A DNA stretch of 64,000 nt from an uncultured Alphaproteobacteria bacterium (GTDB taxonomy: Bacteria > Pseudomonadota > Alphaproteobacteria > HIMB59 > GCA-002718135). The notes under the pieces are model-generated. The model saw nothing but the letters and a program-made list of their open reading frames with translations. It was not told where the DNA came from and did no database searches. The position numbers and the translations under genes are program-made. Shown one piece after another: positions 14,256 to 25,537 of this stretch. Positions within the stretch are counted from its first letter, which is position 1, and each line of letters starts with the position of its first letter. The DNA lies in assembly GCA_902600225.1 (NCBI GenBank), contig CACKIH010000004.1:1-64000 (forward strand). The letters run 5' to 3'.

Positions 14256-14819
14256 ATGAATAAAGATAATAAATTTGAAAACACTGTTGGGATTGAGTCA
14301 ACATTTCCAAAAGATATGCCTAATGAGCATGGAGAAATTCCAGTATGGAATTCTGAAAACTGGTTTTATGAAGACGTTATTGTCGGTCATAAAATTAGAT
14401 CTCTTCGCAGAACAATATCTGAAGGAGAGGCCATGCAATTTAATTGTATGGTTTTAGATATGCATCCATATGTAGGTGATGAACATTTTGCCAAAAATGA
14501 AGGTATGTTCCAAAAAAGATTAGTAGCAGGAGCAATGGTTTTTTCTTATGGGTTAGGTTTAGTTGCAACTAACTGTGTAAATTCTTTTAGTTATGGATAT
14601 GACCGTTTAAGATTCATCAAACCAGTTTTTATTGGAGACACAATTTATACAATTAGAACTAATATGGAAAAAAAACCAAAATATGAAAAAATGGGTTTAG
14701 TTAGAACCAGTTACGAAGTTTTTAAAGGGGAAGGCGAAATCGTTCTATATTGTGAGCACCTACATTCAGTTTTATATAAAAAACCAGAAGACTTTAAAGA
14801 TAAATACGAAAAAAAATGA
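14256..14819 (+). CDS. MaoC-like (hotdog) dehydratase
   Basis: [42 protein letters not shown]. Confidence 0.8.
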
Positions 14820-15949
14820 TTAACTTAAAGGGGATGACTTGGGATCATTCTAGAGGTTTTGATCCAATGGTTGCTACATCTAAAAAATTTCAGGAGTTTC
14901 ATAATAATAAAGTTTCAATTGAATGGGATAAAAGACCGTTACAAGCATTTGCAGATAGACCCATAGAAGACATGACTGATGATTATGATTTAATAGTAAT
15001 AGACTATCCTCATGTTGGTGAAGTAGCTCACAAAGGACTTTTACAAAACTTAAATCTCAATGAATATCAATCTAAATTAAACGATTTAAAAAAGCAATCA
15101 GTTGGAAAATCACATGAGAGCTATTTTATAGATAATAAACAATGGGCTCTTGCCATAGATGCTGCCTCACAGACCGCGTGTTACAGAGAAGACTTAGTTA
15201 GAACAATTCCATCTAAATGGGATGATCTTCTTTCATTAGCAAAAGAGAGAAAAGTTCTTTGGCCTTTAAAACCAGTCCATGCAATAAGTAGTTTTTATAG
15301 TATTTATAACAACATTACCGAAGAATTAATCCCAGAAGAAAAAAATTTTATTAATAAAGATGCTGGCGTTAAGACCCTTACAATGATGAAAGCTGTATCC
15401 AAAGAAATAATCAATGATTGCTTAAGTATGGATCCAATTCAAACTGCTGAACTCATGACAGAGACTAATGATTTTTATTATTGCCCATACATTTATGGAT
15501 TTTCAAATTACTCGAGAAATAATTATAGAAAAAATATTTTGAAATATATTGATGTTTTAGATTTGTCAGGCAAAGGTCCATCAGGTACACATTTAGGTGG
15601 CACTGGCATAGCAGTATCAAATGTTAGTAAGAATAAAGATCTAGCAATTGAATATGCATTTTGGATTGCAGGTGCTGAATGTCAAAAGTCACTTTTTTAC
15701 CAAAGTGGTGGACAACCAGGAAATTCTGAAGCTTGGGAGGATGAAAAGATAAATCTAGAAACAAACGATTTTTTTAAAGCAACTCGTAAAACTCTTGATT
15801 TAGCATGGGTAAGACCAAGGCATAATGGTTATATGGAATTTCAGGACAAAAGTGGCGATGTTATTAATGAATACCTACAAACAGAAATTTCAGCTGAAAG
15901 TATTTGTGAAAAATTATCTGATATGTACAATAACAGTTTCAAAGAATAA
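14816..15949 (+). CDS. ABC solute-binding-protein-fold protein lacking a signal peptide
   Basis: Resembles extracellular solute-binding proteins (TEWDRR-type N-lobe, [30 protein letters not shown]) but starts [19 protein letters not shown]-coupled to upstream MaoC gene. Confidence 0.65.
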
Positions 15950-15957
15950 ATTATTGT

Positions 15958-17106
15958 ATGACTAAACCATTAGAAGGATTAACTGTATTAGAATTTAGCC
16001 AGTTTTTATCCGGGCCATATGCAGGCTTAAGACTTGCTGATTTAGGAGCAAGAGTAATTAAAATTGAAAGACCAGAAGTTGGGGATCTTTGTAGAAACTT
16101 ATATATCAGCGATACTGATCTCGAAGGTGATAGCACTTTATTTCATGCAATTAATAGAAATAAGGAAAGCTTTGCAGCAAATTTAAAAGATGCCAAAGAC
16201 ATAGAGTTAGTAAAAAAATTAATTGAGAAGGCGGATATAATTACACAAAATTTTAGACCAGGAGTAATTGAACGTATTGGTTTAGATTATAAAAATGTAA
16301 AAAAAATAAATCCAAAAATAGTTTACGGAACTATTTCTGGTTACGGATCTGATGGACCTTGGAGTTCATTACCTGGACAAGATTTATTAGCGCAATCTAG
16401 AACAGGTTTAGTTTGGTTAAATGGTAATGGAGGTGAAGCACCAACCCCAATGGGTTTGGCAGTTGCTGACATGTTGGCAGGACATACACTTGTTGAAGGT
16501 ATACTAGCAGCGGTTATCAAAAGATTTCGAACGGATAATGGATCCCATGTAGAAACAAGTTTAGTTGAGGCCTTATTAGATTTTCAATTTGAAGTTCTTA
16601 CGACATATTTTAACGATGGAAATAGAAAGCCGCAAAGAAGTTCCTATAATAATGCCCACGCATATCTGTCAGCTCCATATGGAATTTATAAAACATCAAA
16701 TGGATATATAGCAATTGCAATGACACCACTTCCTCAACTTGGTGAATTACTTGATTTAAATTCAATTAAAGATTTGCATGATCAAAAAGAATGGTTCACA
16801 AAAAGAGATGAAATTAAAAAAGATATTGGCGACTGGATTGAAAAACAAACAACAGAACACTGGTTGAGTATTCTTGAGCCAGCAGATATATGGTGTGCTA
16901 AAGTACTTGATTGGGAAACAATGGTTAAACACGAAGGATTCAAGATTCTCGATATGGTTCAGAGAATTAAAAGAGATGATGGACTTGATATTGAAACACT
17001 TCGTTGCCCAATTAAAATTGATGGAGAGATTTTTAAATCAAGTAAGGCAGCTCCAAAAATTGGGAATGACAATAATAGTATTATGAAAGAATTTGGTATC
17101 TCATGA
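15958..17106 (+). CDS. CaiB/BaiF family CoA-transferase
   Basis: MTKPLEGLTVLEFSQFLSGPYAGLRLADLGARVIKIERPEVGDLCR; NRNKESFAANLKD; TQNFRPGVIERIGLDY. Confidence 0.92.
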   Translation: MTKPLEGLTVLEFSQFLSGPYAGLRLADLGARVIKIERPEVGDLCRNLYISDTDLEGDSTLFHAINRNKESFAANLKDAKDIELVKKLIEKADIITQNFRPGVIERIGLDYKNVKKINPKIVYGTISGYGSDGPWSSLPGQDLLAQSRTGLVWLNGNGGEAPTPMGLAVADMLAGHTLVEGILAAVIKRFRTDNGSHVETSLVEALLDFQFEVLTTYFNDGNRKPQRSSYNNAHAYLSAPYGIYKTSNGYIAIAMTPLPQLGELLDLNSIKDLHDQKEWFTKRDEIKKDIGDWIEKQTTEHWLSILEPADIWCAKVLDWETMVKHEGFKILDMVQRIKRDDGLDIETLRCPIKIDGEIFKSSKAAPKIGNDNNSIMKEFGIS

Positions 17107-18209
17107 AAATTAAAGATATAGAAATTCGTATGTGTCAACACAAAGAGCCTGTCATGAAAGATTCAGAAATGAGAGATGGGAAAAAATCAGATTTAGAATT
17201 CTTAGTTATCACATTTCACACTGATGAAGGTCTATCTAGCTCTACTTTTGGGTTTGCAGGAAGGGGTGCAGAAATGGCTGGTGAAATCGCAAATTCAATT
17301 TTTAAACCTTTTTTTATTGGCAGAGACCCACTTTATCGTGAACAACATTGGCATGAATACAGAACTGCAGACAGATGGTGGAACCACGCACCTATATATA
17401 GTTATGGACCATTTGATATTAATTGTTGGCTTCTCTCATCTATGCAAGCAGACCAACCTCTTTATAAGTATTTAGGCGCTTATAGAGACAAGGTTCCAAT
17501 TTATGGAAGTTCTCTAGTTTTAGATTCACCTGAGGCTTACGCAAAAGAAGCCTTGGAATATAAAAAGAGAGGTTTCAATGCTTATAAACTTCATCCTCCT
17601 GGAAAATATGATTTTGATTTGGAAGCTCATAAAAAAACACGTGAAGCAGTTGGTGATGAATTTAAGCTTATGAGTGATCCAGTTGCCCCTTATACTTTTG
17701 AACAAGCTCTACGTTTTGGAAGAGAGTTAGAAAAATTAAATTATTATTGGTACGAGGAACCTTTGTTTGATGAAAATTTTCATAATCTAAGAGAATTAAC
17801 TAGAATATTAGATATCCCTATTATTGGAACAGAGGTTATAGCAAAACACCCTTACAGTGTTGCGGAATGTATCTCTACAAGGGTTGTTGATATGGTAAGA
17901 GCTGATGTTTCATGGAGTGGAGGCATTACAGCTACAATGAAAACAGCACACTTAGCAGAAAGTTTTGGTGTTCAGTGTGAAATTCATACAGCTATTTATC
18001 ATCCTTTAGAACTTGTTAACTTACATTGTTGTGCAGCTATAAAAAATTCTGAATTTTTTGAAGTACTGGTTCCTTATGAATATTTCAATTTTGGTTTAAA
18101 AGATTCTATCAAAGTCGAAAACGGTTATGCCCATTTACCTTCTAAGCCAGGTCTTGGCATTGATTTAGATTGGGATTTTATAGATAATACAACTTTCAAA
18201 AAAATTTAA
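17103..18209 (+). CDS. enolase-superfamily (mandelate racemase/muconate lactonizing-type) enzyme
   Basis: AYKLHPPG, LMSDPVAPY, YYWYEEPLFDEN, IIGTEV, EIHTAIYHPLE. Confidence 0.8.
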   Translation: MKIKDIEIRMCQHKEPVMKDSEMRDGKKSDLEFLVITFHTDEGLSSSTFGFAGRGAEMAGEIANSIFKPFFIGRDPLYREQHWHEYRTADRWWNHAPIYSYGPFDINCWLLSSMQADQPLYKYLGAYRDKVPIYGSSLVLDSPEAYAKEALEYKKRGFNAYKLHPPGKYDFDLEAHKKTREAVGDEFKLMSDPVAPYTFEQALRFGRELEKLNYYWYEEPLFDENFHNLRELTRILDIPIIGTEVIAKHPYSVAECISTRVVDMVRADVSWSGGITATMKTAHLAESFGVQCEIHTAIYHPLELVNLHCCAAIKNSEFFEVLVPYEYFNFGLKDSIKVENGYAHLPSKPGLGIDLDWDFIDNTTFKKI

Positions 18210-18211
18210 AA

Positions 18212-19513
18212 ATGACAAAGATTACTAAATTTAGTGTTCAAGATGTAAGATTTCCTACTTCAAAAGATTTAACTGGATCTGATGCCATTCATACAGATCC
18301 TGATTATTCAGCAACGTATGTGACAGCTTTTACTGATCAAGCAGAATTAAAAGGATACGGTATTGCCTTCACGATTGGTAAAGGAAATGACATTGTTGCT
18401 GAATGTATAAAACATTTTTTTCCAATTTTTGAAAATATGGACTTAAATGATTTAGAAAATAATATTGGTAAGCTCTGGTTCAAGTGTGTTGATCATAGTC
18501 AGTTACGTTGGTTAGGTCCTGAAAAAGGAGTTGTTCATATGGCTGTATCAGCAATCTTTAATTGTTTATGGGATTTAATTGCTAAGAAGCACAAAAAACC
18601 TTTGTGGCAGTTTATTGTAGAAAGTGAGCCTGAAAAAATAGTTAGCTGGTTAACATTTAAATATATTGAAGATGTTTTAACTCCAGAGGAAGCGTTAGCG
18701 ATTTTATCAAACAATCAAAATGATAAACAAAAACGTATCGATACAGTATTGCAAGAAGGATATCCATCTTACACAACTGCTGCAGGATGGCTTGGCTATT
18801 CAGATGAAAAAATAATTCAATTATGTAGAGAATATATGGCGAAAGGTTGGAAACATTTTAAAATCAAGGTTGGTTTAGATCTAGATGCAGATGTAAAAAG
18901 ACTTGAGTTAATTAGAAAAACAATTGGTGATGATTGCTTTATTATGGTTGATGCAAACCAACAATGGAACGTAGAACAATCGATTAAACATATTAATGCA
19001 TACAAAAAATTTAATTTATTTTTTGTAGAAGAACCTACAAGTCCAGATGATGTAATGGGTTTTGCCAAAATAAAAAAAGAAGTTGGAAACGTAAGACTTG
19101 CAACTGGAGAAGCTTGTGGGGGTCGTATCATGTTTAAACAATTTCTCGAATCTGGTGCAATGAACATTTGTCAAATTGATAGTTGCAGGTTGGGAAGCAT
19201 CAATGAAATAATAACTGTGTTGTTAATGGCACATAAATTTAATGTTCCAGTCTTTCCTCATGCTGGTGGTGTTGGTCTTTGTGAGTATGTCCAACACTTA
19301 TGTATGATTGATTATATTTTAATTAATGGTTCTAAAAATGATAAAGTAGTAGAATATCAAGATAGTTTACATGAACACTTCATATACCCATGTAAAATTG
19401 AAAATGGAAATTATATGCCTCCACGTGATCATGGATATTCTATTGAAATGAAAGAAAAGTCTGTTAATGAGTTTTCTTTTCCTAACGGAGAGTATTGGAA
19501 GAATAATATATGA
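18212..19513 (+). CDS. fucD: L-fuconate dehydratase
   Basis: 433 aa enolase superfamily; HFKIKVGLDLDADVKR, MVDANQQWNV, FVEEPTSPDD, ATGEACGGR, FPHAGGVGLCEYVQHL. Confidence 0.9.
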   Translation: MTKITKFSVQDVRFPTSKDLTGSDAIHTDPDYSATYVTAFTDQAELKGYGIAFTIGKGNDIVAECIKHFFPIFENMDLNDLENNIGKLWFKCVDHSQLRWLGPEKGVVHMAVSAIFNCLWDLIAKKHKKPLWQFIVESEPEKIVSWLTFKYIEDVLTPEEALAILSNNQNDKQKRIDTVLQEGYPSYTTAAGWLGYSDEKIIQLCREYMAKGWKHFKIKVGLDLDADVKRLELIRKTIGDDCFIMVDANQQWNVEQSIKHINAYKKFNLFFVEEPTSPDDVMGFAKIKKEVGNVRLATGEACGGRIMFKQFLESGAMNICQIDSCRLGSINEIITVLLMAHKFNVPVFPHAGGVGLCEYVQHLCMIDYILINGSKNDKVVEYQDSLHEHFIYPCKIENGNYMPPRDHGYSIEMKEKSVNEFSFPNGEYWKNNI

Positions 19514-20247
19514 GACTAAAAGATAAAAAAATAATTGTAACTGCTGCAGCACAAGGAATAGGAAGGTCAACAGCTTTAAGATTTGCTAATGAAGGTGCGC
19601 ATGTCACTGCAACTGATATTAATGAAGATAAACTTAAAGAATTAAACAAAGAAAATACTTTAATAAAAACTCAAAAATTAGATTCAACAAATAAAAATGC
19701 CGTTGAGGAATTTTGTTCAACTATTGATTATGTTGATGTTCTCTTTCACGCTGTAGGTTTTGTTCATCATGGAACATTATTGGAATGTGATGATGTAGAA
19801 TTTCATCGATCAGTTAATGTAAATGTATATTCAGCCTATCTAATGAGTTATAATTTACTACCTAAAATGTTGGATAATGGAAAAGGAAACATAATAATTG
19901 TATCTTCTGCAGCTTCAAATGTAAAAGGAGCTCCTAACAGATTTATTTATGGAACAACAAAAGCTGCATTAAATGGTTTTGTAAAAGCTCTAGCAGCAGA
20001 TTATGTCAAAAAAGGAATTCGTTGCAATGCAATACTTCCTGGAACAGTAGAAACACCATCTTGGGAAAGTAGGGTGAATATGGCTGATGATCCAAAACAA
20101 GCTCGAAGGGATTTTATTGCTAGACAAGCTATGGGAAGATTAGCTCAACCAGAAGAAATTGCTTCACTTGCAACTTATTTAGCAAGTGATGAATCAGATT
20201 TTGTAACAGGAACACTAAATTTAATTGATGGAGGGTGGACTTTATAA
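19510..20247 (+). CDS. SDR dehydrogenase, probable 2-keto-3-deoxy-L-fuconate dehydrogenase
   Basis: AAAQGIGRSTALRFANEGAHV, SSAASNVKGAPNRFIYGTTKAAL; directly downstream of fucD. Confidence 0.82.
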   Translation: MRLKDKKIIVTAAAQGIGRSTALRFANEGAHVTATDINEDKLKELNKENTLIKTQKLDSTNKNAVEEFCSTIDYVDVLFHAVGFVHHGTLLECDDVEFHRSVNVNVYSAYLMSYNLLPKMLDNGKGNIIIVSSAASNVKGAPNRFIYGTTKAALNGFVKALAADYVKKGIRCNAILPGTVETPSWESRVNMADDPKQARRDFIARQAMGRLAQPEEIASLATYLASDESDFVTGTLNLIDGGWTL

Positions 20248-21095
20248 TGAAAACTTTAAGATATAGAATTGGTAAAGATGTTAAGCCAGGAATTTTGGAC
20301 TCAGAAGAGAACATACGCGATGCTTCTTCTTTGGTAAATGATTGGGATAATAAGAATGTAACTATTGAAAAGCTGAATGAAGTAAAACAAGTTGATTTAA
20401 GTTCATTACCTATTGTCAAAAGTCATGACAGTATAGCACCATGTATTTGTAAAGAAAGTATTGGTAAAATTATTTGTATAGGCCTTAATTATTCTGACCA
20501 TGCAGAAGAAACAGGACAAAAAGTACCTCCCGAACCAATTATTTTTGCAAAAGCAACAAGTTCAGTAATTGGACCAAATGATGATGTGGAGATCCCCAAA
20601 AAATCAGTTAAATCTGACTGGGAAGTTGAATTAGGTGTTATTATTGGAAAAGAAGCAAAGTATATTTCTGAAAGTGAATCACAATCTCATATTGCTGGGT
20701 ACTGTGTTATTAATGATTTAAGCGAGAGAGAATTTCAGATTGAACATTCAGGCCAATGGATGAAAGGTAAATCATGTGATACTTTTGGACCAATAGGCCC
20801 TTATTTAGTTACAACAGACGAAATTCCTGATCCTCAAAATCTTAAAATGTGGCTTGAGGTTAATGGTAAGAAAATGCAAGATGGATCTACAAGTACGATG
20901 GTTTACGGTGTAGACTTTCTCATTAGTTATTTAAGTCAATTTATGTCATTACAGCCAGGAGATATTATCTCTACTGGAACACCTCCAGGTGTAGGTATGG
21001 GAATGAACCCTCAAGTTTTTTTAAAAGCTGGTGATGTAATGAAATTAGGAATTGAAGGCTTAGGAGAACAATCACAAAAAACAATTCAAGCTTAA
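20247..21095 (+). CDS. fumarylacetoacetate hydrolase family protein, probable 2,4-diketo-3-deoxy-L-fuconate hydrolase
   Basis: CIGLNYSDHAEETGQKVPPEPIIFAKATSSVIGPND; GDIISTGTPPGVGMG. Start adjusted to ATG 20247 (TAATG overlap). Confidence 0.85.
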   Translation: MKTLRYRIGKDVKPGILDSEENIRDASSLVNDWDNKNVTIEKLNEVKQVDLSSLPIVKSHDSIAPCICKESIGKIICIGLNYSDHAEETGQKVPPEPIIFAKATSSVIGPNDDVEIPKKSVKSDWEVELGVIIGKEAKYISESESQSHIAGYCVINDLSEREFQIEHSGQWMKGKSCDTFGPIGPYLVTTDEIPDPQNLKMWLEVNGKKMQDGSTSTMVYGVDFLISYLSQFMSLQPGDIISTGTPPGVGMGMNPQVFLKAGDVMKLGIEGLGEQSQKTIQA

Positions 21096-22249
21096 TGTTT
21101 GGAAGTATCAATAACTGTCATAATGTAAAAGACTTTAGAAATTTAGCAAAAAAAAGGCTTCCAAGTCCAATCTTTCATTATATTGATGGCGCCGCTGATG
21201 ATGAAATAACTTATAAAAGAAATACTGATGCATATGAAGAATGTGATTTAATTCCAAATGTTTTAAGTGGCGTTGATAAAGTAGATATGTCAACGACTGT
21301 GATGGGACAGAAATTAGATATGCCATTGTATTGTGCTCCAACCGCTCTTCAGAGGTTATTTCATCATGAAGGTGAGATTGGAGTAGCAAAAGCTGCTGAA
21401 AAATTTGGAACCATGTTTGGAATTTCTTCGCTAGGGACTGCAAGTATAGAAGAGATATCTAATTTAGTTAAAACACCAAAACTATTTCAGCTGTATGTTC
21501 ATAAAGACAAAGGACTAAACAAAGCTCTTATAGAAAGGTGCAAAGAATCTAACTTTGAAGCAATGGCGGTTACAGTTGATACTGCTGTCGGTGGAAATCG
21601 TGAAAGAGATTTGTATACTGGTTTTACTATTCCAATGAAACTAAAACTTAATAGTGTTTTAAGTTTTATGCTACATCCAAAATGGGCAGTAGATTATTTT
21701 ACAAAACCTAAATGGGAATTAAGCAACTTAAAAGACCATATAAGTGAAGGCACAAAAGTAATGACTACAATAGGTGATTATTTCACAAAGATGCTTGATA
21801 ATTCAATGAGTTGGAAAGATGTTGAAAATATTAATAAAGAGTGGGGTCGTCAATTTGCAATTAAAGGAGTTATGTCAGTGGAAGATGCAAAAAAAGCAGT
21901 TGATGTTGGGGCTTCAGCTATAATGATTTCAAATCATGGAGGACGACAGTTAGATGGATCAAGATCACCGTTTGATCAATTAGCTGAAATTGTTGATGCT
22001 GTTGGAGATAAAATAGATGTAATATGTGAAGGAGGTATTAGAAGAGGCACCCATGTTTTAAAAGCATTATCACTTGGTGCAAAAGCATGTTCTGGAGGAC
22101 GAATGTATTTGTATGCTTTAGCTGCTGGAGGTCAAAAAGGCGTTGAAAAAAGTTTATCTAATTTACGCAATGAAATTGAACGAGATATGAAATTAATGGG
22201 AGTTTCTAACGTAAAAGAACTAACAAGAAACAATCTTAAATTCAGATAA
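21095..22249 (+). CDS. lldD: FMN-dependent L-lactate dehydrogenase / alpha-hydroxyacid dehydrogenase
   Basis: FHYIDGAADDEITYKRNTDAYEECDLIP; SNHGGRQLDGSRSPFDQL; DVICEGGIRRGTHVLKALSLGAKACSGGRMYLYALAAGG. Confidence 0.88.
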   Translation: MFGSINNCHNVKDFRNLAKKRLPSPIFHYIDGAADDEITYKRNTDAYEECDLIPNVLSGVDKVDMSTTVMGQKLDMPLYCAPTALQRLFHHEGEIGVAKAAEKFGTMFGISSLGTASIEEISNLVKTPKLFQLYVHKDKGLNKALIERCKESNFEAMAVTVDTAVGGNRERDLYTGFTIPMKLKLNSVLSFMLHPKWAVDYFTKPKWELSNLKDHISEGTKVMTTIGDYFTKMLDNSMSWKDVENINKEWGRQFAIKGVMSVEDAKKAVDVGASAIMISNHGGRQLDGSRSPFDQLAEIVDAVGDKIDVICEGGIRRGTHVLKALSLGAKACSGGRMYLYALAAGGQKGVEKSLSNLRNEIERDMKLMGVSNVKELTRNNLKFR

Positions 22250-22309
22250 ATCAACAATTTTCTTAAAAAAAATATTTATTCTAATTCAATTTTATTTTAC
22301 AAATTTTTT

Positions 22310-22630
22310 ATGAATGATGAAATTGATCCAATCTTAGTTGGTGAAACTGATGATATTGAAGTTGGAACTGTTGAAAGTTTTGAACACGATGATACCAACT
22401 ATGCAATTTATCATTTAGAAGGAGGTTTTTTTTGTACTCAAGGGAATTGTAATTGTGAAGAAAACGCACCTTTAAGTGAAGCAGAAGTTGATGGTGAAGA
22501 ATTAGAGTGTGTTGGTTGTGGCAAAACTTATAGTATTGTTTCAGGAGATTGCATCAGCGAACCTGAATTAGATGGTTTAAAAATATTTGATATATCAGAA
22601 GAGGATGGAAATCTTTACTTAAATATTTAA
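22310..22630 (+). CDS. Rieske-like (MocE-like) small ferredoxin with Cys at both canonical His ligand positions
   Basis: 106 aa; FFCTQGNCNCEENAPLSEAEVDGEELECVGCGKTYSIVSG. Layout of CxH-x15-17-CxxH but reads CNC...CVGC. Confidence 0.6.
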   Translation: MNDEIDPILVGETDDIEVGTVESFEHDDTNYAIYHLEGGFFCTQGNCNCEENAPLSEAEVDGEELECVGCGKTYSIVSGDCISEPELDGLKIFDISEEDGNLYLNI

Positions 22631-23592
22631 CTTACAATATCAAGATTTATAATATTTTTTTTGTTTAAATTTTTACTATTAGTTAAAAAATCAAAAACAT
22701 TTTCACACGACTCTACAGACATCCTTTTTCTGCATTCTAGAGTTAACGCTGCATTATGTGGAGTTAACAAAGTATTATTTAATGAAAATAGTTTATGATT
22801 TTCTATTGGTGGTTCTTTTTCAAAAACATCAACACCAGCTCCAAAAATTTTTTTATTTTTTAAAGCTTGATATAAGGCATCTTCATTAATTATACCGCCT
22901 CTTGCCGTATTAATTAAAATCAAATTAGATTTAAAGGATTCAAATTGATCAAAAGAAATCAAATTTTTAGTTTCTTCATTTAAAGGTAAATGAATACTTA
23001 TATAATCAGCAATTTTAAAGCCTTCTTCTTTATTGATTGGAATACATTTATGATTTTTTATTTCTTCATCCGAAAGAAATGGATCATATACATAAACTTC
23101 CATTTCAAACCCACTACATCTTTTTGCTAGAGCTCTTCCTATTCGACCAAAACCAAGAATTAAAATTTTTTTATCATAGAGTTCAAAGTAGTTGGGTAGA
23201 TTACCTTTTTCTTGAAATCTACCTAATTTAACTAATCTATCTGATTCAAAAATATTTTTTGTTAAACAAAGCATCATTGTCATTACATGTTCAGCTACGC
23301 TGGTTGCGTTTGCTGTTCCAGTAATGGCCATAGCTATCTTATTATTATTTAAATATTCAGTATCTACATTGTCATAGCCAACACCGTGCCTTGCAACAAT
23401 TTTTAGGTTCTTTGTTTGTGAAAGAATATTTTTATTTATTTCTGCCGTTCTTACGACAATACCATCCACATCTCGTAATTTTTCTATTAGATGTTCTTCA
23501 TCAATATTATTGGTGACAAAGTATTCAATATTATTTTTATCAAATATCTCATATCCACTTGGATGAATTTCACCAACAATCCCAACTTTCAT
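22627..23592 (-). CDS. D-isomer-specific 2-hydroxyacid dehydrogenase (SerA-like)
   Basis: VARHGVGYDNVD, LILGFGRIGRALAKR, NTARGGIINEDAL, GVDVFEKEPP, TPHNAAL. Confidence 0.88.
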   Translation of the reverse strand: MKVGIVGEIHPSGYEIFDKNNIEYFVTNNIDEEHLIEKLRDVDGIVVRTAEINKNILSQTKNLKIVARHGVGYDNVDTEYLNNNKIAMAITGTANATSVAEHVMTMMLCLTKNIFESDRLVKLGRFQEKGNLPNYFELYDKKILILGFGRIGRALAKRCSGFEMEVYVYDPFLSDEEIKNHKCIPINKEEGFKIADYISIHLPLNEETKNLISFDQFESFKSNLILINTARGGIINEDALYQALKNKKIFGAGVDVFEKEPPIENHKLFSLNNTLLTPHNAALTLECRKRMSVESCENVFDFLTNSKNLNKKNIINLDIVS

Positions 23593-23692
23593 GAATAATT
23601 CTATATTCTAAAATATTAGAAAAATAAATTGTTTAACTCTTTAAATTATTTTTTTATTATAATAGTATCTATTTTTTTTGGGAAAGGAACAC

Positions 23693-25537
23693 ATGAAAAC
23701 AGTTAGAATGTCATGTTCACATGCATTAATTAAATATTTAACTATGCAAAAAATTTTAATTAATGGAAAAAAAGAACCACTATTTCCTGGTGCTTTCGGT
23801 ATTTATGGCCATGGTAATGTTGCTTGTATTGGACAAGCTATGGAAGAATATCAAAATGAACTTCCTGGATACAGAGGTCATCATGAACAAAATATGGCAC
23901 TAACAGGTATTGCATATGCTCGTGCCAAAAGAAGACAACAAATATTTGTAGCAACTTCATCTGTTGGACCTGGTTCTACTAATATGGTTACAGCTGCTGC
24001 AGTTGCTTTAAGTAATAGACTTCCAATTTTACTTTTACCAGGTGATACATTTTCTAGTCGTTTTCCAGATCCTGTTTTACAACAAGTAGAACATTTTAAT
24101 TCTCCTTCAGAAACTCAAAATGATTCATTTAAATCTGTATCAAGATATTTTGATCGAATTACTAGACCTGAACAAATTTTAACATCTTTACCGCAAGCAA
24201 TTAATGTAATGCTTGATCCTGCTGACTGTGGTCCAGCAGTAATTTCTATGTCTCAAGATGTTCAAGGAGAAGCCTATGATTATCCTGAAATCTTTTTTGA
24301 AGAAAAAATACATGAAATTAGAAGAATTTATCCTGATCCAAATCAAATACAAAAAGCAGCTGATAAATTAAAACAATCTAAACAACCAATTATTATTTCA
24401 GGTGGAGGTGTTTTATATTCAGAAGCGGAGGAGGAAATTTCCGCATTTGCAAAAAAACATAATATTCCTGTAACAGCAACTGTGATGGGTATTGGTTGTA
24501 TGAATAAAGATGATCCCTATTATATAAGCGCAATTGGATGCTTAGGAGAAGGCTCATCTAATAACCTTGCTACTGATACAGATTTAGCACTAGCTGTGGG
24601 AACAAAATTAGGAGACTTTACAACTGGTTCTTGGACTAATTTTGAAAATGAAAATTTTCAACTTGTCTCAATAAATACTTCACGATTTGACACTACAAAA
24701 CATCGCGCAACTCCTGTTGTAAGTGATGCAAAAATTGGACTTCAAGAATTATCAAAGGCATTAGGAGATTGGAAAGCACCAGATAATTGGTACCACCGTT
24801 CAATTGACGAAAGAAATAAATGGGATGAATATGTCGCAAAAGAAAGTGGACCAACAAACCAAGAATTACCATCATATGCTCATGCTGTAGGTGCAGTTTA
24901 TAGAAACTCAGACCCATCAGATATTGTCGTAACTGCAGCTGGAGGGTTAGTAGGTGAAGTGGTTCAAATATGGAAACCTAAAGAACTAAATACTTTTGAA
25001 ACTGAATGGGGTTTTAGTTGCATGAGTTATGAAATATCAGGTGCACTTGGAATCAAAATGGCAAAACCTAATCAGGATGTAATTGTATTTGTAGGTGATG
25101 GATCATACCTTTTACAAAATAGCGACATCTACAGTTCAGTTTTATATGATAAAAAATTAATTATAGTTGTTTGTGATAATGGCGGTCACATGGTTATTAA
25201 TAGATTGCAACTAGCAAAAGGTGGAAATGAATATCTTTGTAATCTCAATGCAGCCAGAGCGACAAATGTACAGTTTGTAGATTTTGAGGCTCACGCAAAA
25301 AGTATGGGGGCAAATGGTGAGACTGTTAAATCCATTTCAGAGTTAGAGGCTGCTTTCAAAAGAGCAAAAGAATCAGACAAAACCTATGTTATTTCTATGA
25401 AAACAGATGGGTATGAATGGTTAGAGGGGACAGCTTTCTGGGAAAGTCCAACACTTGAAGTAGATAATACCGAAGGTAAGAAATCAGCTCTTAGTGAATT
25501 TTTAGAAGGAAAAAATAAACAACGTAAAGGCGTATAA
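23693..25537 (+). CDS. iolD: 3D-(3,5/4)-trihydroxycyclohexane-1,2-dione hydrolase (ThDP-dependent)
   Basis: MKTVRMSCSHALIKYL...LFPGAFGIYGHGNVACIGQAM; VGDGSYLLQNSDIYSSVLYDKKLIIVVCDNGGHMVINRLQ. Start adjusted to ATG after gggaaagga. Confidence 0.9.
   Translation: MKTVRMSCSHALIKYLTMQKILINGKKEPLFPGAFGIYGHGNVACIGQAMEEYQNELPGYRGHHEQNMALTGIAYARAKRRQQIFVATSSVGPGSTNMVTAAAVALSNRLPILLLPGDTFSSRFPDPVLQQVEHFNSPSETQNDSFKSVSRYFDRITRPEQILTSLPQAINVMLDPADCGPAVISMSQDVQGEAYDYPEIFFEEKIHEIRRIYPDPNQIQKAADKLKQSKQPIIISGGGVLYSEAEEEISAFAKKHNIPVTATVMGIGCMNKDDPYYISAIGCLGEGSSNNLATDTDLALAVGTKLGDFTTGSWTNFENENFQLVSINTSRFDTTKHRATPVVSDAKIGLQELSKALGDWKAPDNWYHRSIDERNKWDEYVAKESGPTNQELPSYAHAVGAVYRNSDPSDIVVTAAGGLVGEVVQIWKPKELNTFETEWGFSCMSYEISGALGIKMAKPNQDVIVFVGDGSYLLQNSDIYSSVLYDKKLIIVVCDNGGHMVINRLQLAKGGNEYLCNLNAARATNVQFVDFEAHAKSMGANGETVKSISELEAAFKRAKESDKTYVISMKTDGYEWLEGTAFWESPTLEVDNTEGKKSALSEFLEGKNKQRKGV

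Follow-up and report, generated by a model that had tools for sequence, protein, structure and literature searches.

A predicted Rieske-fold protein with cysteine at both histidine-ligand positions, encoded in the L-fucose operon of a marine alphaproteobacterial family

We analysed a stretch of 64,000 nucleotides (the window) from an uncultured alphaproteobacterium and found that the last gene of its L-fucose operon encodes a small acidic protein, P0001, that is predicted to have a Rieske fold and has the ligand motif CxC-x17-CxxC, not CxH...CxxH. In Rieske centres the two histidine ligands set the high, proton-coupled potential by which these centres are defined. The reading that we tentatively prefer is that a Rieske ferredoxin was recruited to the fucose operon, that both of its histidine ligands became cysteine, and that the product may be an all-Cys [2Fe-2S] carrier of low potential.

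The all-Cys gene and its predicted fold

The all-Cys gene and its main features are as follows:
22310..22630, plus strand: P0001, all-Cys protein with predicted Rieske fold, 106 aa, ATG start
22433..22435, plus strand: Cys42 (in CTQG), unconserved; most distinct orthologues have A or S here
22448..22456, plus strand: loop 1 ligand pair C47-N-C49 in place of canonical C-x-H, the same in all 65 distinct orthologues
22508..22522, plus strand: loop 2 ligand pair C67-V-G-C70, then G71 (canonical C-P-x-H-G), C67 and C70 invariant in 65 orthologues
22523..22549, plus strand: post-loop segment KTYSIVSGD, of which SIVSGD is invariant within the family

The reading frame, its length and the codons of CNC and CVGC are as a first-pass annotation of the window had given them; all four ligand codons are tgt (C47 at 22448-22450, C49 at 22454-22456, C67 at 22508-22510 and C70 at 22517-22519). 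The protein contains 28 D+E and 2 K+R, giving a net charge of about -26 (K+R minus D+E) and a pI of about 4, which fits an electron-carrier protein. The invariant SIVSGD segment is a candidate surface for contact with a partner.

P0001 matched the Pfam family PF00355 with 30.2 bits, above the curated cut-off of 20.3. This family was also matched at E <= 0.001 by 24 of 29 aligned orthologues and PF13806 (Rieske_2) by the other five, so the whole set reads as Rieske-like. The solved sequence relatives of P0001 are dioxygenase Rieske ferredoxins. In the alignment with these and with canonical relatives, C47 and C49 fall on C-x-H and C67 and C70 fall on C-P-x-H, and the glutamate preceding C67 and the post-loop glycine G79 are retained in the all-Cys proteins. 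The AlphaFold model of P0001 (pLDDT 91.3, pTM 0.80) was made from an alignment of the 29 orthologues with zero canonical Rieske sequences. When this model was searched with Foldseek, the top PDB matches were dioxygenase Rieske ferredoxins (TM 0.83-0.87, rmsd 1.6-1.9 Å). P0001 is thus predicted to adopt the Rieske fold that the first-pass annotation had proposed, with support from Pfam, AlphaFold and Foldseek; where an unrelated fold might have emerged, the model matched Rieske ferredoxins instead.

The same annotation had likened the protein to MocE and bacterial Rieske ferredoxins. The MocE family TIGR02377 was indeed the best NCBIfam match, with an alignment over the full length, at 35.9 bits, which is far below the cut-off of 136.15 and leaves P0001 outside that family. 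P0001 shares its fold, length, the glutamate before loop 2 and the post-loop glycine with the dioxygenase ferredoxins (BphF/BphA3, 1fqt and 2e4p; CarAc, 1vck), and its 17-residue loop spacing with the biphenyl dioxygenase ferredoxin BphF. It differs from them in that both histidines are cysteine, in an identity of 16-27% to the fold matches, and in its surroundings: the operon contains no ferredoxin reductase or oxygenase gene, so P0001 is not placed among the oxygenase ferredoxins. We regard P0001 as a variant of the Rieske ferredoxin kind, which belongs to the fold by prediction and departs from the ligand definition of a Rieske [2Fe-2S] centre (CxH...CxxH), the pattern being CxC...CxxC in 65 of 65 distinct orthologues.

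Conservation and origin of the four cysteines

Orthologues with 55-100% identity to P0001 were found in 86 of 110 genomes of the family. The relatives that have names include AG-337-I02, MarineAlpha5 bins and many uncultured marine alphaproteobacterial genomes, and from these names we take the family to be the AEGEAN-169/HIMB59 group. This clade has been described previously (PMC10308909). The 65 distinct orthologues came from 131 loci, among which some contigs count twice because two tools supplied them. C47, C49, C67 and C70 are identical in all of them, excluding chance or sequencing error as the source of the motif, and C42 (A, C or S) and C81 (P, C, S or A) vary. Pairwise dN/dS (Nei-Gojobori) was 0.04 in the closest pairs and had a median of 0.13 over the 25 pairs with usable synonymous sites, showing that the gene evolves under purifying selection. 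The all-Cys pattern is therefore fixed and selected, and C42 lies outside it.

These results bear on the first-pass annotation. Its claim of cysteine at both histidine positions holds, since C49 and C70 align with the Rieske histidine ligands and are conserved throughout, and the loss of conservation in CNC and CVGC that would have spoken against it did not appear. Its inclusion of an extra upstream cysteine, C42, in the site is not borne out; this residue is alanine in most distinct orthologues and no role for it is supported.

The invariance also bears on whether P0001 holds a metal at all. NirD keeps the Rieske fold without the ligands, so metal-free Rieske folds exist, and a putative NirD (3c0d) was among the Foldseek matches. 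P0001 could in the same way be a metal-free subunit whose cysteines form a disulfide or are left over from a former site. A site no longer in use would be expected to drift, whereas the cysteines at all four ligand positions are invariant under strong purifying selection, and we consider this reading very unlikely.

The closest relatives outside the family are all canonical Cys2His2 proteins (45 aligned rows, 22 from the class and 23 from the phylum), as are the MocE-like paralogues of the family itself and the one sister-family match inspected. The canonical paralogue from the same genome (G000:C6, CTH...CPMH) is approximately 31% identical to P0001 and, unlike it, adjoins ferredoxin reductase and desaturase-like genes. 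Its locus (L054, 101-4149) contains, besides the paralogue, an FAD ferredoxin-reductase-like gene, two fatty-acid-desaturase-like genes and a KPHMT/PEP-mutase-like enzyme, a set that by eye, from the open reading frames, resembles MocD/MocE/MocF. In a tree of 77 sequences built on a 106-column alignment, the all-Cys proteins formed one group (100/100), separate from the MocE family, on a long stem of 1.53 changes per site; the exact sister of the group is left open by this tree. No intermediate with one cysteine and one histidine was found among the sequences compared. Given the canonical ligands of the outside relatives and of the family's own paralogue, the change from histidine to cysteine is derived and fixed, apparently in one event. 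The simplest reading is that the pattern arose once, by two changes from histidine to cysteine in the family ancestor.

When 385 class and 399 phylum genomes were searched with profiles, every match outside the family was a canonical Cys2His2 protein, and no independent all-Cys Rieske protein emerged. A DNA pattern search for CxC-x17-CxxCG, at that spacing alone, was run over the 385 class genomes and had a single match outside the family, in an unrelated alphaproteobacterium, G388 (L204, 1464-1658, minus strand; HCRCWARSMPEGDRVANGQLHCAACGPIYSLRLGKPA). This 62-aa open reading frame is antisense to two longer ones and has no Rieske N-terminus. Its second half looks Rieske-like, which we discounted because the pattern itself imposes much of that likeness, and the match is most likely due to chance. 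Phage and viral collections gave no match. Plasmid collections gave seven weak ones, counted irrespective of their ligands; the two that carry an annotation are labelled MocE or oxygenase ferredoxin. No natural all-Cys Rieske protein was described in the open-access papers searched; the 'non-canonical Rieske' of PMC4683180 is a cytochrome b complex.

The L-fucose operon and the adjacent lactate dehydrogenase

The genes around the all-Cys gene are as follows:
17103..18209, plus strand: second enolase-superfamily enzyme, sugar-acid dehydratase-like (PF13378; NF040866 below cut-off)
18212..19513, plus strand: L-fuconate dehydratase, enolase superfamily (PDB 2hne, E 2e-139)
19510..20247, plus strand: SDR dehydrogenase, likely L-2-keto-3-deoxyfuconate 4-dehydrogenase (PF13561/PF00106; role inferred from operon position)
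20247..21095, plus strand: L-2,4-diketo-3-deoxyrhamnonate/fuconate hydrolase, FAH family (PDB 8gsr, E 5e-85; NF053535, 374.6 bits, below the cut-off of 500)
21095..22249, plus strand: FMN L-2-hydroxyacid (L-lactate) dehydrogenase, LldD/mandelate dehydrogenase type (PF01070, E 7e-130; match to 6bfg)
22627..23592, minus strand: D-isomer 2-hydroxyacid dehydrogenase, convergent, at the operon boundary; its gene shares 4 bp with the end of the all-Cys gene

This operon corresponds to route 3, the non-phosphorylating breakdown of L-fucose to pyruvate and L-lactate (PMC11199699), and its gene order is kept across the family. The all-Cys gene starts 60 bp downstream of LldD in the same orientation, suggesting that it is co-transcribed with the fucose genes. 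Upstream of the dehydratases and in the same orientation (window 14256-17106) are genes for a MaoC-like dehydratase, a solute-binding protein and a family III CoA-transferase, which are in part conserved together with the dehydratases. Just past the operon (window 23678-25537) is a gene for a 619-aa IolD equivalog of the myo-inositol pathway (TIGR04377, 769 bits, above the NCBIfam cut-off of 715). In a comparison of window 22200-23700 with L049 (G080), the all-Cys gene and the 2-hydroxyacid dehydrogenase gene shared 64-81% DNA identity, a drop from 93-99% ahead of them, and the value returned to approximately 89-97% afterwards. It looks as if this block was exchanged by recombination between close relatives.

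Among the 110 family genomes, 86 have the all-Cys gene, 86 have the diketo-acid hydrolase and 84 have both. The four mismatches (G003, G008, G010 and G107) are all at contig ends. Thus, the linkage of the all-Cys gene to the fucose operon is near-perfect.

Adjacency first suggested that LldD might use the all-Cys protein as its dedicated acceptor, which would pass electrons from lactate to the respiratory chain. LldD lies directly upstream on the same strand in 78 of 80 named-genome loci, and it is the only basic product (pI 8.5) of the nine operon proteins computed, beside a very acidic neighbour. It would also oxidise the L-lactate that the operon produces (pathway: PMC11199699). Against this, the two genes occur apart. 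In G103 (91% complete; L034, 1247-2493) the order is SDR, hydrolase and all-Cys gene, with LldD missing between the last two and absent elsewhere in the genome at E <= 1e-10. In G109, LldD faces the 2-hydroxyacid dehydrogenase with neither the all-Cys gene nor the hydrolase, and in the sister family thirty genomes have LldD and no genome has the all-Cys gene. LldD also appears to carry a membrane-anchoring segment like that of Pseudomonas l-iLDH (PMC3344892), a feature of quinone-linked enzymes: it matches (S)-mandelate dehydrogenase 6bfg in one unbroken stretch (residues 6-379), whereas its alignments with glycolate oxidase and other soluble relatives are interrupted near residue 187, and together these probably mark such a segment. 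Based on G103, G109, the sister family and the membrane segment, LldD is very probably independent of the all-Cys protein, and a dedicated pairing of the two seems improbable. In three of the six sister-family LldD loci opened, the gene adjoins an aldolase-SDR fusion and an FGGY kinase (domains checked in L197), a context that fits deoxysugar breakdown through lactaldehyde.

One sister-family genome, G118 (L196, 996-9032), has a fucose operon with 63-90% identity to that of the family and no all-Cys gene after LldD; it is the only carrier of the hydrolase among 52 sister-family genomes. The fucose pathway can therefore probably run without the all-Cys protein. Horizontal transfer of the operon between the two families is possible.

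The probable metal site and its significance

CxC pairs ligate [2Fe-2S] clusters in mitoNEET and anamorsin and zinc in Hsp33, so the sequence alone does not decide the metal in P0001. Three retained features, the whole ferredoxin fold, the spacing of the loops and the signature after them, incline us towards [2Fe-2S], together with the strong acidity of the protein. According to this model, a gene for a MocE- or dioxygenase-type Rieske ferredoxin would have been added behind the L-fucose genes in the family ancestor, and both histidine ligands of its product would have become cysteine. In the resulting cluster, C47 and C67 would bind one iron and C49 and C70 the other, and the protein would act as a one-electron carrier of low potential, lacking the pH-dependent potential of His-ligated Rieske centres. 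This very acidic protein may dock on a partner expressed together with the fucose enzymes.

The closest experimental comparison is with engineered mutants of the archaeal Rieske ferredoxin ARF (PMC2946596). In ARF, H64C gave a low-potential [2Fe-2S] cluster with three cysteines and one histidine, H44C alone failed, and H44C/H64C, which has the natural pattern of P0001, 'largely impaired the cluster assembly'. The triple mutant H44I/K45C/H64C, modelled on rubredoxin, gave a rubredoxin-like mononuclear site. Whereas the engineered double mutant was mostly without a cluster, the same pattern is fixed and selected in the P0001 clade. The ARF assembly defect counts against a [2Fe-2S] carrier, as do the lack of a reductase or oxygenase gene in the operon and the G118 operon that has no all-Cys gene.

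The mutant results, both the failed double mutant and the mononuclear centre of the triple mutant, point also to a single Zn2+ on the four cysteines, a zinc-ribbon-like site on a Rieske scaffold that would be structural, regulatory or a thiol redox switch and not a carrier. Rieske cluster loops share the geometry of rubredoxins and zinc ribbons, which likewise hold four cysteines on two loops with CxxCG in loop 2. In several members loop 2 is CPSCG or CPTCG, as in a zinc knuckle, and a weak LysW-type zinc-carrier match covers the site (E 0.024). G118 is consistent with such a role. A CxC...CxxC zinc site is known from Hsp33, in the form of a zinc switch with CxC-x(27-32)-CxxC in an Hsp33 domain; the spacing in P0001 is 17 and the domain is Rieske, so P0001 is not a switch of this type. 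Loop 1 is CxC and not the CxxC of the mononuclear ARF design, and the full ferredoxin fold and post-loop signature are strongly selected, beyond the apparent need of a structural zinc. We consider zinc somewhat unlikely.

A rubredoxin-like mononuclear iron site appears less likely still. In the ARF triple mutant the same scaffold did hold such a centre, and loop 2 of P0001 resembles a rubredoxin knuckle. However, rubredoxins bind one iron with two CxxC knuckles, and loop 1 here is CxC in all 65 sequences. P0001 also differs from rubredoxins and zinc ribbons in having a full Rieske domain and no significant sequence match to them, and no rubredoxin was among its Pfam or PDB sequence matches. 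[2Fe-2S] is our first choice and a mononuclear site a close second, with mononuclear zinc and iron taken together about as likely as [2Fe-2S].

If a cluster is present, it follows from the chemistry that its potential would be lower and that proton coupling would be lost. P0001 would then be a natural, lineage-fixed all-Cys [2Fe-2S] Rieske scaffold in which the assembly problem has been solved, with a low, pH-independent potential and a new partner in sugar catabolism; we hold this fuller proposal with slightly more reserve than the carrier reading itself. Comparing the natural loops with those of ARF, in which the double mutant mostly failed (PMC2946596), would reveal which second-shell changes permit metal binding or steer it elsewhere. 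What is surprising here is the chemistry, and it can be tested directly on a small soluble protein. A natural clade in which both histidines have become cysteine while the fold stays under selection shows what the histidines contribute and what a Rieske scaffold can hold. With the all-Cys protein, the L-fucose operon of these marine bacteria also has a puzzling further component.
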